Assembly (NCBI GenBank): GCA_016870995.1
Contig: VFZU01000001.1
Location: 62,001 to 126,000 of the forward strand
Origin: Acidobacteriota bacterium
GTDB lineage: Bacteria > Acidobacteriota > Terriglobia > Bryobacterales > Bryobacteraceae
Direction of reading: 5' to 3'
DNA length: 64,000 nucleotides
The position numbers were made by a program, and so were the translations under genes. This document shows, one piece after another, positions 12,284 through 63,723 of the stretch. Below the pieces are notes generated by a model. The model saw only the letters and a program-made list of their open reading frames with translations, was not told the DNA's origin and made no database searches. The stretch's first letter is position 1; each line of letters opens with the position of its first letter.

Positions 12284-12727
12284 TTAGTGAGCCGAGTAGT
12301 GAAGTTCGCGATCGTGTTGTTCGCGGAAGGAATTGAGCAGGGTGTAGGCTGCCGCGCCTTTTTCAGGAATCGGGCGGTTGCCGAAGAAGTCGACATAGCC
12401 GCTGATCGAATCAGCAAGTTCTTGCGAGACCGCGCGGAAGCCCATGGACCAAGCCTCAAAGGCGCGTTGCGTGATCTTTTGGTGAAGGAGAATGAAGCAG
12501 CACTTGTGGCGAGGGTCGCGCTCGATTGTTTCAAACAGAGCTCTGAGGACTGCCGATTTCCCTTCGAGGGCCTGAATGAAGGTGCCGTCGCAGTAAACGA
12601 GCATGCCTGAGATGCCGAGGTGGGCGTTGTTGTCGCGGGCCTTGTTGAGTAAGGTGATGAGCTCAGAATCCGTCATGAGATGACTGGCAGAGCTGACGTA
12701 CACAATTTGCTCAAGATCCTTTTCCAT
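12284..12727 (-). CDS. BLUF-domain blue-light sensor, stand-alone
   Basis: A 147-residue single-domain BLUF protein, which binds FAD and senses blue light through hydrogen-bond rearrangement. The critical residues line up with AppA by spacing: Tyr10 in QIVYVSSAS (AppA Tyr21), Asn34 (Asn45), Gln52 in TFIQALEG (Gln63), Trp93 and Met95 in EAWSMGF (Trp104, Met106). All photocycle residues are present. There is no attached EAL, cyclase or HTH domain; the last 50 residues form a short cap. It is 30 bp downstream of the P5C dehydrogenase gene and 29 bp upstream of the metalloprotease gene, all on the minus strand. GATAAG ends six bases before the ATG, a possible own leaderless promoter. Confidence 0.9.
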   Translation of the reverse strand: MEKDLEQIVYVSSASHLMTDSELITLLNKARDNNAHLGISGMLVYCDGTFIQALEGKSAVLRALFETIERDPRHKCCFILLHQKITQRAFEAWSMGFRAVSQELADSISGYVDFFGNRPIPEKGAAAYTLLNSFREQHDRELHYSAH

Positions 12728-12757: not shown

Positions 12758-14326
12758 TTAGAACTTTTTTTCTGCGATCGACTTGGCTTGAACGAATTGA
12801 AGCAGATAGTCGGGGCCGCCTGCTTTGGAATCGGTGCCGGACATTTTGAAGCCACCGAAGGGGTGGGCGCCAACCATCGCGCCGGTACATTTGCGATTGA
12901 TGTAGAGGTTGCCGACAAAGAACTCGTTGCGGGCGCGCTCAACGTGTTTGGGGTTGGTGGAGTAGACAGCGCCGGTGAGGCCGTATTCACTGTCGTTGGC
13001 CAGTTGGAGGGCGTCCTCGAAGTCGCGGGCTTTGGTGATGCCAAGGACAGGGCCAAAGATCTCTTCCTGGAAGATTCTATGGTTGTGCTCGATGTCGGCA
13101 ATGATGGTGGGCTTTATGAAATGACCATCGCCCTGGGCTTTAGTGCCGCCAGTGATCAGGCGACCTTCCTGCTTGCCGGTCTCGATGTAGTTGAGGATGG
13201 TCTTCTCGGCCTTGGGTCCAATGACCGGACCCATGAAGTTGGCCGGGTTGTCCGCGGGGCCCTGAGTCAAAGCTTCTGCGAGTGGCTTCAGCTTGTCGAT
13301 GAGCTGGTCATAGACCGCTTCGTGAACAATCAGGCGAGAGCATGCCGAACATTTCTGACCCTGGAAGCCGAAGGCGGAGGCGATGACGCCCTTCGCGGTT
13401 TCGTCGAGATCGTGGACGTCCTTGTCGACGACAATGGCGTCTTTGCCGCCCATCTCGGCGACGACGCGCTTGATCCACTTCTGGCCGGGGTTGGTTTTGG
13501 CTGCCAGCTCGACGATGCGGAGGCCGACTTCTTTGGAGCCCGTGAAGGAAATGAAACGCGTTTTGGGATGGGAAACGATGAGGTCTCCAACCTCTGCGCC
13601 GGAGCCGGGAAGGAACTGAAAGCTCTCGGGGGGGAAGCCCGCTTCAAGCAGCACTTCAATGAACTTGGCGGCAATGGTAGGCGTTTCGCTCGAAGGTTTG
13701 ATGACGACCGAGTTGCCAGTGACGAGAGCTGCGACGGTCATCCCGGCGAGGATGGCGAGAGGGAAGTTCCAGGGAGGAATGATCACGCCGACGCCGAGCG
13801 GGAGGTAAGTCATGACTCCGTGTTCGCCGGGCATTTGGACGAGGGGATCGGGCTGGGCGAGTCGCAGCATCTGGCGGGCGTAATAATCGCAGAAGTCGAT
13901 CGCTTCGGCGGTGTCGGCTTCGGCTTCAAGCCAGTTCTTGCCGGATTCGAGGATGAGCCAGGCGTTGAATTCGCTTTTACGCTGCTTGAGAATTTCTGCG
14001 GCTTTGAACAGGCGAGCGGTACGGTCTTCGGCAGGAACGGCGGCCCAGGTGGGGAAGTAGTGGAAGGCGTTTTCGACGGCGCGCGTGGCCTGTTCGGCAC
14101 TGGCCTTCTGGTGGATCCCAATGAGCTCGGTGGGCTGTGAGGGGTTGTAGCTGAGAAGTTTGTGGATGCCTCCTTTTTCGTGGAGGCCACCAATGAGGAG
14201 TGGGTATTCTTTGCCGAGTTGTGTGCGAACGAAGGCCAAGGCCGCCTCCATGGCGGCCTTATGCTCGGGCTGAGAAAAATCGCGGTAGGGCTCGTTGACG
14301 AAGGGAGGCAACGATTGGAGATTCAT
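12758..14326 (-). CDS. pruA: L-glutamate gamma-semialdehyde (1-pyrroline-5-carboxylate) dehydrogenase
   Basis: A 522-residue aldehyde dehydrogenase of the RocA/PruA type, oxidising glutamate semialdehyde from proline or arginine breakdown to glutamate with NAD. Visible motifs are the Rossmann segment [20 protein letters not shown] for cofactor binding, [13 protein letters not shown] with the general-base Glu, and [16 protein letters not shown] with the catalytic Cys. The family's early segment EYPLLIGG and the late [20 protein letters not shown] are both present. I start at 14326 (MNLQSLPP), where AAAGGAC provides a ribosome binding site, rather than further upstream. No proline dehydrogenase gene is adjacent. 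Confidence 0.93.
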
Positions 14327-49222: not shown

Positions 49223-50293
49223 ATGCTGGAAGCCCGGTTGCAAAAACGATTTGCCAAAACACAGGATTCCTCTGAGTTTGAGCTGAACGTTCATTTTGAA
49301 ATCGAAGTGGGCACAACAGTCTTGTTTGGCCCCAGCGGCTCTGGAAAGTCGTTGACGCTGGATTTGATTGCGGGCTTTGCGAAGCTGGACGCAGGCCGCG
49401 TGCTACTCAACGATCGGTTGTTGGCGGATGCCGGAACGGGCGTGTTTCTAGCCCCGCAATTGCGGCGCTGCGGCTACTTGTTCCAAAGACCTGCATTGTT
49501 TCCTCACCTCACGCTGAGGGAGAACATGATGCTAGCCGCGATGGGCCTCGCAAAGCTGGAGCGGCACCGGAAGGTGAATGCGCTACTGGATTCGTTTCGT
49601 CTTGGCGATATCGCTTCACGCAAGCCCAATGAGGTTTCTGGGGGGCAGCGGCAGCGCTGTTCGATCGCGCGAGCTCTTGTGACCGTGCCCGCCATGTTGC
49701 TTCTCGACGAGCCATCGAATGGCCTCGACACCACTCTGAAGCATGAATTCTACGAAGTGCTGGCGCAGATTCAGGCGGACTTCCCGTTGCCGGTTTTGCT
49801 GGTGACACATGACCTCGAAGAAGCATTCCTCCTGGCTGACCGGATGCTGGTTCTGGTGGATGGAAAGATTGCGCAGGCGGGGACACCCAGAGAGATTCTG
49901 AACCAACCGGCTTCAGCGCCAGTAGCCAATTTGCTCGGGCTGTTCAATCTCTTGCCCGCCGAGATCAAGCAATTGGATCCCGGCAACAACAAGAGCAAGT
50001 TGAAGTGGAACGAGACCGAACTGGAAGGGCCTTACTATCCAGCTCGCCTGTTGGGCGATCGGGTCACCGTTTGCGTGCGCCGCGATGAGATTTCCGTTAG
50101 CCCCAAAATGGGCAAAACGGAGAAGGGTTCGCTGGTCTTGACGCTTGAGGGTGCCTCTGAAACAGCGCGCACAGCATTGCTACATTTTGAAGCTGGGCTG
50201 ATTGTGGAACTGCCGCTGGAAGAGTTCGCCGAGAACCGCCACCATCGTGAATGGGCGCTGAGGATGCCGACCAGCACTCTGAGAATTCTGTGA
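49223..50293 (+). CDS. modC: Molybdate ABC transporter ATP-binding protein
   Basis: A 356-residue ATPase: Walker A GPSGSGKS at 36-43, signature VSGGQRQRCSIARAL, Walker B LLLDEPSNGLD and the switch histidine in LLVTHDLEEAF. The C-terminal third (about 240-356, VRRDEISVSPKMGK) is a TOBE-like oxyanion regulatory domain. Together with ModB it would import molybdate or tungstate, but no periplasmic binding protein (ModA) gene is present in the window. Its TGA overlaps the next start (GTGA). Confidence 0.93.
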   Translation: MLEARLQKRFAKTQDSSEFELNVHFEIEVGTTVLFGPSGSGKSLTLDLIAGFAKLDAGRVLLNDRLLADAGTGVFLAPQLRRCGYLFQRPALFPHLTLRENMMLAAMGLAKLERHRKVNALLDSFRLGDIASRKPNEVSGGQRQRCSIARALVTVPAMLLLDEPSNGLDTTLKHEFYEVLAQIQADFPLPVLLVTHDLEEAFLLADRMLVLVDGKIAQAGTPREILNQPASAPVANLLGLFNLLPAEIKQLDPGNNKSKLKWNETELEGPYYPARLLGDRVTVCVRRDEISVSPKMGKTEKGSLVLTLEGASETARTALLHFEAGLIVELPLEEFAENRHHREWALRMPTSTLRIL

Positions 50294-50799
50294 TTCGTCA
50301 CTGCATCACCGAAGGCCTTCAGCAGCATATGCCATCGGTGGATGTGATTCAGTTGCGCGCGAAAGAAGTGGATGCTGGCGAGTTGTTGCGGCGTGCACGT
50401 CGGATTCGGGCTACTTTCAACGGGACACTTTTGATCAACGACCGGGTCGATGTTTGTCTTGCGGCTGGTGCCGATGGAGTGCACCTCCCAGCCCACCGCC
50501 TGGCGCCTTCAATTTTGAAACAGCGATTCGGACTGATCGTCGGAGTTTCGTGCCACGATCTGGAGGAGGTGCGCAGAGCCGAGCAGGAAGGGGCTGACTA
50601 CGCGTATCTCAGCCCCATTTTCAAGAGTTCCTCGAAACCCGGATATGGCCCCGCACTTGGGCTCGATACGCTGCGGAGAGTGGTCGAGGCTGTCTCGATT
50701 CCGGTGATCGCGTTGGGGGGGGTCACGAAGGAAAACGAGGTGAAGTGCATCGAGTCTGGCGCTGCGGGTATCGCTGGAATTTCATACTTCGGTCAGTAA
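50290..50799 (+). CDS. Thiamine phosphate synthase-like (ThiE/TenI) protein
   Basis: A 169-residue TIM barrel, shorter than the usual 210 of ThiE; the first strand-helix unit is reduced. Motifs are VIQLRAKEVDAGELLRRARR, TLLINDRVDVCLAAGADGVH, the loop VGVSCHDLEEVRRAEQEGAD, YLSPIFKSSSKPGYGPALGL and VIALGGVTKENEVKCIESGA. The phosphate and pyrophosphate loops are retained. Start GTG overlaps the modC stop, so it is coupled to molybdate uptake. Alternatively it is a TenI-like protein of other function. Confidence 0.78.
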   Translation: MIRHCITEGLQQHMPSVDVIQLRAKEVDAGELLRRARRIRATFNGTLLINDRVDVCLAAGADGVHLPAHRLAPSILKQRFGLIVGVSCHDLEEVRRAEQEGADYAYLSPIFKSSSKPGYGPALGLDTLRRVVEAVSIPVIALGGVTKENEVKCIESGAAGIAGISYFGQ

Positions 50800-50801
50800 A
50801 T

Positions 50802-51230
50802 TCAAAATAGCCTCTTATCGCGATCGATCCCTCGCCCAGCCCAGAAGCCTATGCCGGAAAGAGCGGGCACGAGCAAGAATGGAAATCCTTGAGCGCCCTC
50901 ACCGCTGCCAGTAATCATTACGATCAGGTCGGCCCCAATCAGGTATCCACCAAGCGCACCGATCACGCGGAAGCGATTTTGTCGCCGCACTGCATGAACC
51001 GATTTAATTTCAGATCTGGCGAGGCGTTCTATTTTGTTCTTTGTCTTTAACGTGAAGCAATCCCCCTCAACGGCGAACTAGCTCCCCTTGTAGCGTTTGC
51101 CGTCGACCTGCTTCACTTCCACTTCAAGACCTGCGAATCTCTCCGTGGTTTTGCTCCAGGGAACTCGTTCCACCGGATTGCTTTGCGCCAGTAGTGCTGT
51201 CGTGAGAAATAGTGTGATCCAGAGCCGCAT
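50802..51230 (-). pseudogene. Secreted/membrane protein gene interrupted by one in-frame amber codon
   Basis: On the minus strand the ATG at 51230 opens MRLWITLFLTTALLAQSNPV (signal peptide), runs through FAGLEVEVKQVDGKRYKGS and meets TAG at 51078-51080. The same frame continues without further stop through FAVEGDCFTLKTKNKIERLA, then RSEIKSVHAV and the membrane-like GALGGYLIGADLIVMIT, to TGA at 50802-50804. The joined 142-codon frame reads as one coherent protein of a type I recognise in Acidobacteriota (LxxGxxVEVKxxDGxxxxGxxxxxxxxxFxL...I...V). Either a recent nonsense mutation or translational readthrough explains it. A -10-like CATGCT six bases before the ATG is intact. Confidence 0.7.
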
Positions 51231-51236
51231 GATTCA

Positions 51237-51242
51237 AGCATG
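51237..51242 (-). promoter_or_regulatory. -10-like CATGCT for the amber-interrupted gene
   Basis: Read on the minus strand, CATGCT ends six bases before the ATG at 51230 (gap TGAATC). No Shine-Dalgarno. Confidence 0.35.
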
Positions 51243-51283
51243 CACCGAATCTCAAAGACACTGTGCCGCCCTTGTGTGGCTTT

Positions 51284-52111
51284 CTAAGCCGCCACAATGC
51301 GGATTCTATGCAGATTTGCTAGCTCGGGCAGTTCCCGCTCCGCCACAATATCAGCGCCAACAATGCCGCATAGTGCCAGGCCCACCTGCCAGCCGGCGTG
51401 GGCGGGATCCCGGATCAAGATTGATTCCGTAGGAACACCGAGAGCGGGAAGAAGCATGGCGGCCCACTCCCGCAACGAGTGCGAGCGTGAGACAACGGCG
51501 ATCATCACCGGCCAATGTGGCCTGCCGATTCCTGCGAGCAACTGATCGACAGATCGAAGAGAGATCTGCTTGACCGCCCGGCCATTGAGAAATTCACTCA
51601 CGATGGCCGCTCGGCTGGGATTGCACCACACCTCTGACTCAGAAGCGGTTTCCCGTGTGCTGGCCGTAATCCCGGCGAATTGGAATGGCTTTCCTTTCAG
51701 TGGCTCCATCTCGGCAGCAAGAATTCGTGCCAGCTCAAGATCGGGATCCACAACTAAACACGGCAAGGTTTTGGGCGCAGATGCGAGCGCAGCGGCGGGC
51801 TGTGCTCTCGAGAAGCCGAGCGATTCAGCAGCTTCGGTCCATCTGGTCACAAATCCCTCAAGCGTAATTCGCTCCCGGTCGACGACGTAGACTCCTCTAC
51901 CCGGCTTCGAAATGAGCCATCCCCGCTCGCAGAGATCACCGTATACGAGTGAAACCGTGTTCGCTTGGATGCCTAGTTTGCGAGCCAATTGGGTCAAACT
52001 TGGCAACTCGTGGCCAGGCTGCAGTTGGCCGCTGAGAATGCCCAGCAGCAATTGGGAAGAAAGCTGTTCACGCAAAGACTTTCCCAAGCCGCGTGTGAGC
52101 CAGAATCTCAT
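51284..52111 (-). CDS. GntR-family transcriptional regulator
   Basis: A 275-residue regulator. The winged helix-turn-helix covers about residues 8-78 (SLREQLSSQLLLGILSGQLQ, PSLTQLARKLGIQANTVSLV, LISKPGRGVYVV). The C-terminal 190 residues lack the aminotransferase of MocR proteins and the FadR or UTRA domains; they read as alpha/beta (LPCLVVDPDLELARILAAEM, ESILIRDPAHAGWQVGLALC), possibly a periplasmic-binding-like fold. I start at the ATG at 52111, 8 bp after the Gfo/Idh stop, so the two are co-transcribed. An earlier ATG at 52210 lies inside that gene. Confidence 0.83.
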   Translation of the reverse strand: MRFWLTRGLGKSLREQLSSQLLLGILSGQLQPGHELPSLTQLARKLGIQANTVSLVYGDLCERGWLISKPGRGVYVVDRERITLEGFVTRWTEAAESLGFSRAQPAAALASAPKTLPCLVVDPDLELARILAAEMEPLKGKPFQFAGITASTRETASESEVWCNPSRAAIVSEFLNGRAVKQISLRSVDQLLAGIGRPHWPVMIAVVSRSHSLREWAAMLLPALGVPTESILIRDPAHAGWQVGLALCGIVGADIVAERELPELANLHRIRIVAA

Positions 52112-52118
52112 GTCGAGG

Positions 52119-53378
52119 TTAAGCCTTCGGGTATTCGTAGCCTTTTCGATAAGCACGCGAGAGCAAGGCATTGGCCTTCGGGTCGTTCGTGATCGACTCC
52201 TTGACTCCATCCCAATCGAGGCTCTTGCCGTGGCGCAGGCTCGCGATGGCGAGCATACTCATCGCCGTGGCGCGGTGACCCTTATCGATGTCACAGGCGG
52301 GAAGGCGATTGGCTGCGATGGCATCGAGGAAGTCGCGCCAAAGCTCGCGGATGTTTTGCCCGTCTGGAGCATTGAGTTGCGGCTCTGCGTGTATGGTTTG
52401 AGCTTTGGGGTTCGATGGGTAAAAGGTCCAGCCATCGCGCCACCCCATATGGAAGGTGCCTTCGGTGCCGTAGAAGTAGCAGCCGATGGCTGCCTTCTCC
52501 GCGTTGTTATTGGCGTAAAGACGATGCTCCCAACTACAGCGGAACGACTCGAAATCGAATGTAGTGATGAGCGTGTCTGGGGCATCCGTATTGTCCTGCC
52601 GGATGAAGCGGCCTCCCGTTGAAAATACGCGCCGCGGGTACTTTTCTTCTGTCCACCAAAGCAACTGGTCAAACCAGTGGATGCCCCAGTCGCCAACCGT
52701 ACCGTTGGCGAAATCCATGAACTGTCGGAAGCCCCTCGGATGAATCGTCTTGTTATAAGGCCTCAATGGAGCCGGTCCGCACCACGCATCCCAATCAAGC
52801 CCCTGTGGGGCGTCGCTATCGGGAGTGATCGAGCCAGCTCCGCCTGCGCTTCCCACGAAGGCGCGGACCATACCAATCTTGCCTACCTTGCCGCTGCGGA
52901 GAAACTCCATTCCAGAAATGCAGTGAGGCGACATGCGACGGTGCGTGCCGACCTGGACCAACTTGCCGGTGGCGCGTGCTGTTTTTAACATTGCCGTGCC
53001 TTCGCGCAGTGTGTGGCTGATGGGCTTTTCAACATAAACATGCGCCCCGGCCTTGAGTGCGGCGATGGTCGGCAATGCATGCCAGTGGTCTGGCGTTGCA
53101 ACAATGCAGATCTCAGGCTTCTCTTTGGCGAGCATCTCGCGATAGTCGCGGTAGCGGTTCGGTTTGTCGCCGGTTAGCTTATCTACTTCGAGTTGCGTTG
53201 CCTGGATTGCGCGCTCATCTACATCGCAAATTCCAACAACTCTCGACTGTCCCGCTTCCATGGCGCAGCGCAAAATGTTGCTGCCCCACCAGCCCGCGCC
53301 AATGATCGCGGTGCGGTACTTGCTACTGGATTGGGCCAATGCTGGCGCCGAAAGAAAAATTGCGTCTCTACGAGTCAT
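52119..53378 (-). CDS. Gfo/Idh/MocA family oxidoreductase with export leader
   Basis: A 419-residue protein. MTRRDAIFLSAPALAQS is a Tat-like leader, then the Rossmann motif YRTAIIGAGWWGSNILRCAM, the EKP motif in HVYVEKPISHTLREG, and DWGIHWFDQLLWWTEE with the HxxD substrate-site pair. This extended type (large inserts such as CGPAPLRPYNKTIHPRGFRQ) is widespread in Acidobacteriota and Planctomycetota, probably acting on periplasmic sugars with a co-exported cofactor. TATACA ends seven bases before the ATG. Confidence 0.9.
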   Translation of the reverse strand: MTRRDAIFLSAPALAQSSSKYRTAIIGAGWWGSNILRCAMEAGQSRVVGICDVDERAIQATQLEVDKLTGDKPNRYRDYREMLAKEKPEICIVATPDHWHALPTIAALKAGAHVYVEKPISHTLREGTAMLKTARATGKLVQVGTHRRMSPHCISGMEFLRSGKVGKIGMVRAFVGSAGGAGSITPDSDAPQGLDWDAWCGPAPLRPYNKTIHPRGFRQFMDFANGTVGDWGIHWFDQLLWWTEEKYPRRVFSTGGRFIRQDNTDAPDTLITTFDFESFRCSWEHRLYANNNAEKAAIGCYFYGTEGTFHMGWRDGWTFYPSNPKAQTIHAEPQLNAPDGQNIRELWRDFLDAIAANRLPACDIDKGHRATAMSMLAIASLRHGKSLDWDGVKESITNDPKANALLSRAYRKGYEYPKA

Positions 53379-62628: not shown

Positions 62629-63723
62629 TCAGGCTTCGCGATCTAAGAGTTGTAGTACTGCCCGAATATAGCCGAAAGCGAAGGCGAATGCCTGTCGGCC
62701 ATTTGTGTCACCTTCGATTTTGGGGACGTGGTCTGGCATCAACATGCCGCTATATCCAACTTCTTTGTATGTTCTGGCGGCCTTGATCATGTCGACATCG
62801 CCTTCATCCGGCATGACTTCCTTGAAGTCAAGAAAGCCTCCCTTGATGTTGCGGAAGTGGACATTGAAGATCTTTCCACGCGAGCCAAACCAGCGGATGA
62901 CATCGTATATCTCTTTGCCGGGATTAACGAGCATCTCGCTCACAGTGCCCTGGCAGAAGTTGAGGCCATGGTACGGGCTGGCCTGAATACCAACGAACTT
63001 CTTCAATCCTTCGACGCTGCCCAGGACGGTTTCTACGCCGCGCCAACCCTTGCCTGGCGGCATGCCCGGGTCGTGTGGGTGGCAGGCCATCCGCACCTTC
63101 GATTCGTTGGCTACCGGAATGACTTTATTCAGGAAGTACGTGATTCGTTCCCAGTAGACATCCGCTGGCACTGGCCCTGCCTCTGTGAGCGGCGGGTCTT
63201 GTTTCGCACCGGCGTATTTGAACGTGCTCAGCGTTGCACCGCCGCGTCCCTTGGTGGCTTCCGTACGGACCACGCCGAGGATGCTCATGTTGTACTTGAC
63301 AGCCGGAATCCCAGCCTTTGCACAATTCTGAATCATCTGGCAGATTTCGTCGATCGCTTTATCGCGACCCGGGCTGCGGCCCATCATGATGTCCGGGTAT
63401 TCCGCGCGGGTGATGTAGGCGGAGCTCAACGGGAGCGGCACCATTTCGAGGCGGATGCCATGCGATTCGACGCGCTCTCTCAGTTTTGTCAGGCCTTCCA
63501 CACTCCAACTTGCATCCATCGCTTTGCTGGGAAGCGCACTGCAGATGTTGTGGACGCCAAGGCCGCTGAGGATCTTGAGTGTTGGGTCATCTGAGATGTG
63601 TTGTGTTCCGAGCTTGGGTTTGCCCTTGCCTTTGGTGCCGACCGGATTCTCAAACGGTGGCTGGGCACTAACGCTCAGCTGAGTGGCGGCCGTGGTGGCT
63701 GCCAGGAAGGCTCTTCTATCCAT
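62629..63723 (-). CDS. Mannonate-dehydratase-like (UxuA family) protein with Tat leader
   Basis: A 364-residue TIM-barrel protein. [29 protein letters not shown] (with [10 protein letters not shown]), [25 protein letters not shown] and [14 protein letters not shown] are the metal-site motifs of D-mannonate dehydratase, which makes 2-keto-3-deoxygluconate. The leader [20 protein letters not shown] is a twin-arginine signal, not expected for the cytoplasmic enzyme. It could be a secreted relative with another sugar-acid substrate. TAGACT ends seven bases before the ATG. Confidence 0.82.

Follow-up and report, generated by a model that had tools for sequence, protein, structure and literature searches.

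In bacteria, readthrough has been proposed for many in-frame stop codons by a study (PMC7918605) that considers only stops found in at least two species and holds that many of these are not pseudogenes. The single-nonsense pseudogenes and nonsense polymorphisms considered in that study resemble the locus reported here in what appears to be one point mutation to an in-frame stop within a frame that is otherwise open. The stops analyzed there are shared between species, whereas the stop described here was seen in one genome only. A literature search found no paper joining Acidobacteria, nonsense mutation, pseudogene, and metagenome-assembled genomes.

The window (the whole stretch of DNA analyzed, 64,000 nucleotides from an Acidobacteriota bacterium) contains an interrupted gene at 50802..51230 on the minus strand. 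A sequence-only reading had described its frame and the context of its stop, and both are exactly as read in the sequence: the frame starts with the ATG at 51230 (minus strand), continues for 50 sense codons to a TAG at 51078..51080 (GGG AGC TAG TTC GCC), and then for 91 sense codons to a TGA that ends at 50802. It encodes a signal peptide, a predicted Sm/Hfq-like barrel, and two predicted C-terminal helices. An in-frame GTG downstream of the TAG could in principle serve as a restart; this entry from a purely mechanical ORF list (50802..50990, minus strand, 62 codons) comprises the two-helix part only. Located 53 bases upstream of the interrupted gene is a gene predicted to encode a GntR-type regulator (51284..52210, minus strand; PF00392, E 1.1e-10). 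The reading frame of this regulator is open in the window and its own stop is TAG. On the other side, a convergent thiE-like gene of the thiamine monophosphate synthase family (50251..50799, plus strand; PF02581, E 8.6e-45) and the interrupted gene have their ends 2 bases apart. An intact promoter-like hexamer had been claimed for the gene, and a scan of 50700-51500 found no sigma-70-like promoter. The small gene more likely shares a transcription unit with the regulator.

Homology across the stop codon

We examined whether the two halves of the frame belong to one gene. An open stretch of 91 codons has a chance of about 7% in a non-coding frame of the window. Codon usage after the stop is weak at 0.046 bits per codon, with 18% of non-coding windows scoring higher and 7% of coding windows scoring lower, and the TAG site ranks 42 of 308 for codon-usage continuity among the window stops that are flanked by open frame. 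This weak score and rank mean that codon-usage continuity alone is not decisive, and the one-gene argument therefore rests on homology.

Using the whole frame with an X at the stop as the query, a first search matched 21 of 41 genomes at E up to 1, mostly weakly, and a search of 237 genomes of the family matched 34 at E up to 1e-3, with the window's own genome counted in both. In the family search the best relative other than the window itself (E 2.6e-22) aligns over residues 2-140 and has no stop. A profile of eight members found 75 of the 237 family genomes at E up to 1e-8; the profile includes the window protein, so that this protein's own score of 1.2e-50 is inflated, partly by construction. 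Amber-bearing matches in G039 and G040 (E about 0.01) were not convincing relatives when read. Homology settles that the two halves are one gene. The claim that they form one coherent protein is thus borne out by the similarity that extends across the TAG, not by the open frame.

A conserved regulator and small-protein pair

The same pair of genes is found in nine other genomes (G111, G011, G123, G003, G006, G158, G159, G183, and G185), where the relative of the small gene lies downstream of a regulator orthologue on the same strand. These nine genomes provide 13 copies of the small gene, with three tandem copies in each of G183 and G185. The tandem copies at these two loci (L064 and L065, respectively) begin about 0.57 kb after the GntR gene, and G185 has a faint partial match between the regulator and the tandem copies.

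When orthologues were aligned over the TAG, as the sequence-only reading had proposed, all 13 copies beside the same regulator were found to carry TGG (Trp) in the stop column and none stops there. More distant aligned relatives have V, F, L, A, T, or M in this column. One G-to-A transition suffices to account for the difference between TGG and TAG, and one such transition in the lineage of the window would be the simplest history.

Using the regulator as the query, we found matches in 22 of the 237 family genomes at E up to 1e-15. We scanned these 22 loci with a small-gene model built from 14 copies, including the one in the window. Ten loci gave a strong match (155 bits or more), three a weak match (69, 27, and 21 bits), and nine none. 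At all ten loci with a strong small-gene match, the regulator match scores 156 bits or higher. In G021 the regulator match is 172 bits and the stretch scanned contains no small gene. Eight genomes belong to the genus of the window; three of them, the window's included, have the usual pair, four lack both genes at the thresholds applied, and G007 deviates. Its locus (L136) contains weak relatives of the regulator (1501-2310) and of the small protein (2330-2755) that are adjoining and convergent.

Predicted fold of the small protein

The protein from the window matched no Pfam or NCBIfam family over the cut-off, so that neither collection names the small-protein side of the pair. We modeled the structure of the frame with the TAG translated as W, using three sequences in the alignment, which gave a model of moderate confidence (mean pLDDT 67, with 72-85 in blocks of ten across residues 21-80). 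The model has a signal helix, a short helix, strands at residues 36-41, 46-55, 58-62, 67-71, and 75-81, and helices at residues 86-107 and 117-135. A Foldseek search of the PDB returned 1092 matches, the best of which are Hfq proteins. The best E, 9.1e-4, is the sole one of the 1092 at E up to 0.001, and the TM-score by target reaches up to 0.82 among the best 50 rows. The predicted protein shares with the Hfq/Sm fold (PDB 4y91, 6gwk, and others) a helix followed by a five-stranded barrel. It differs from Hfq in sequence, with 9-21% identity in the best 50 rows, and in having a signal peptide and two C-terminal helices. Because of these additions, a cytosolic RNA chaperone is not expected.

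The eight members of the profile matched six Pfam families at E up to 0.1 and the Hfq family was not among them, leaving a resemblance at the level of the fold only. SM-ATX was touched by one of the eight members (E 0.013). There is also weak local similarity over the barrel to the C-terminal SH3 domain of RimP (PF17384; 15.6 bits, below the curated cut-off of 26.3 bits), a domain without the signal peptide and C-terminal helices found in the window protein. According to the model, the stop at residue 51 falls in strand 2, so a truncated product would be without most of the barrel and both helices. Our guess is that the intact protein is an envelope protein controlled by the regulator.

Origin and age of the stop codon

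The sequence-only reading had left the choice between a very recent pseudogene and a readthrough or recoding site. The results favor the first part of this, and we consider it highly probable that the locus is an ordinary, recent loss-of-function (nonsense) allele of the small gene of the conserved pair. In such an allele, the Trp codon TGG in a gene for a small exported Sm-fold protein would have changed to TAG in the lineage of the window. Translation would then end after 50 residues, yielding the signal peptide plus about 35 residues and stopping in strand 2, and, judging from the model, neither the five-stranded barrel nor the two C-terminal helices would be made. Three points are inferred here: a genuine allele in the organism, efficient termination, and a product without function. 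The sense codon in all 13 orthologous copies is one substitution away from the stop, as would be expected of a pseudogene, and the frame has few other lesions and little acceleration, yet some conserved columns have changed and identity after the stop is slightly below that of a comparable group.

The state of the rest of the gene bears on the age of this change. It had been claimed that nothing else is damaged. This holds for stops and frameshifts, with 0 further ones in the frame read from 51230 to 50802. It does not hold for conserved residues: leaving the stop column apart, 13 columns are invariant in the 13 other copies and the window copy departs at 3 of them, keeping 10 (4 of 5 before the stop and 6 of 8 beyond it). 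The columns that differ correspond to residues 41, 69, and 84, the difference at residue 69 perhaps being a matter of alignment, and the protein has a shorter C-terminus than the other aligned members do. When each of the other copies was left out in turn, they lost at most 2 invariant columns, a figure that flatters them since most have close relatives in the set.

We compared rates among eight sequences using the regulator's tree as the topology. The window branch takes up 0.24 of the tree length for the regulator; for the small gene its share is 0.18 upstream of the stop and 0.22 downstream. Mean identity between the window and the seven others is 0.41, 0.33, and 0.31, respectively. The small gene thus shows no clear decay or acceleration compared to the regulator. 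Against a distant group (L057, L059, L061, and L062), the window protein has a mean identity of 0.27 after the stop and 0.33 before it; three relatives of another genus, at the same regulator identity of 0.41, have 0.33 and 0.37 against the same group, the means being taken by hand and the part after the stop comprising about 90 residues. These values suggest a possible slight relaxation in the window copy, before the stop as well as after. The difference is small and does not allow for a lengthy unconstrained period. If the frame drifted neutrally, a second lesion would reach a 50% chance at roughly 0.01-0.05 substitutions per site, and having none limits such drift to about 0.05-0.22 substitutions per site (95%), depending on the assumed indel rate. 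The nearest relative is about 40% identical. The rest of the interrupted frame would not be clearly decayed because the mutation is young.

Stops were also found elsewhere in the pair and the family. In the sibling species G006 (L004) there is an in-frame TGA in the regulator (GntR gene at 470-1330 of the locus), 22 codons before the conserved end. The 22 codons after this TGA match the C-terminus of the orthologous regulators, and the small gene is intact. Among the profile matches listed, an internal TAG was flagged, besides the window, only in G165 and G209. In G165 (L156) the small protein is a distant family member, and its TAG falls where the second C-terminal helix lies in the alignment. 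G209 has a remnant without the N-terminal half in frame, of which the TAG is the end. The TGA in the G006 regulator, the TAG in the distant G165 member, the G209 remnant, and the four of seven congeners that lack both genes at the thresholds applied indicate that losses recur, and the pair has apparently been broken more than once. Stops at scattered places in a scatter of members are consistent with gene loss rather than with a recoding site that is conserved.

These other lesions also bear on the idea that the TAG is a sequencing or assembly error, with a sense codon in the organism and an intact gene. The TGG in every copy beside the same regulator and the well-kept remainder of the gene are what such an error would leave, and the genome is a draft of 215 contigs. 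Nonsense lesions in the same pair or family elsewhere speak against an error, including those in G006, an assembly of 4 contigs, and in G165, which is on one contig. We also scanned the window for further genes interrupted by a single stop and found no confirmed case, a result that tells against error and, with two candidates examined, says little about the error rate. The candidates were the best 14 of the 308 stops, several of which lie opposite long ORFs by coordinates. One candidate, at the TAA at 12758, was rejected as the frame after the stop is a separate BLUF (blue-light sensor) gene with its own ATG (12284-12727, minus strand; PF04940, E 5.6e-29) that follows an aldehyde dehydrogenase gene. 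The frame after a TGA at 62629 matched no Pfam family over the cut-off. Overall, we regard an error in the base call as unlikely, and as less likely than a young nonsense allele.

If the nonsense codon is real, it could be read by some ribosomes or decoded throughout the organism as an amino acid. TAG is an ordinary terminator in the window, where it ends 12 of the 37 long ORFs (chosen mechanically at a minimum of 250 codons), including the adjacent regulator. No tRNA with a CUA anticodon (CTA) was found among the 43 typed tRNAs over the Rfam cut-off, a set that is incomplete in that 150 of 174 first-look candidates were scored and three weaker candidates lie outside it. The tRNAs for Tyr, Ile, Thr (GGT), Ala (TGC), and Leu (TAA, TAG) are also absent from these 43; the window's genome (G000) thus shows no Tyr or Ile tRNA among them at an estimated completeness of 98.99%, perhaps reflecting assembly gaps or unscored candidates. 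PylS (TIGR02367) was below the cut-off, with a 23-bit match of a kind seen in 13 of 14 control genomes, in one of which it is over the cut-off. Recoding by a suppressor tRNA or by pyrrolysine is thus unsupported in this incomplete tRNA set and at the PylS cut-off. Reassignment of TAG to pyrrolysine or another amino acid has in its favor only that this one frame stays open after a TAG; with TAG terminating long ORFs and the neighboring regulator, the decoding components not found, and tryptophan at the column in the closest relatives, we find it scarcely credible.

A leaky amber codon, passed by a share of ribosomes so as to yield small amounts of the full-length protein, would explain why the part after the stop stays in frame and retains most conserved residues, since a gene that ribosomes still read through would likewise show little decay. 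Purifying selection (dN/dS below 1) is also reported for genes with shared in-frame stops in PMC7918605. That study considers only shared stops, whereas the stop described here is in none of the 13 relatives beside the same regulator, and programmed readthrough would be expected to conserve the position of the stop, where these relatives have a sense codon. In addition to the missing CUA anticodon among the typed tRNAs, no stable RNA structure follows the stop: 60, 78, and 118 bases 3' of it fold no better than shuffled sequences (z-scores of +1.77, +1.87, and +0.60, respectively). The youth of the mutation accounts for the same facts, and we judge leaky translation to be quite improbable. Even less probable, in our view, is that the pair is a module in which single nonsense changes, such as the amber described here, the TGA near the end of the G006 regulator, and the amber in G165, act as a switch that silences the output and possibly restores it, with leaky translation keeping a low dose of the protein.

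A young nonsense allele of the small gene is thus our preferred reading. As such, it matters little beyond annotation, where the locus should be entered as one interrupted gene instead of two short ORFs. Of greater use is a by-product of the analysis, a conserved pair, a GntR-type regulator followed by a small exported membrane protein with a predicted Sm fold, that occurs in ten genomes of one bacterial family, including that of the window.
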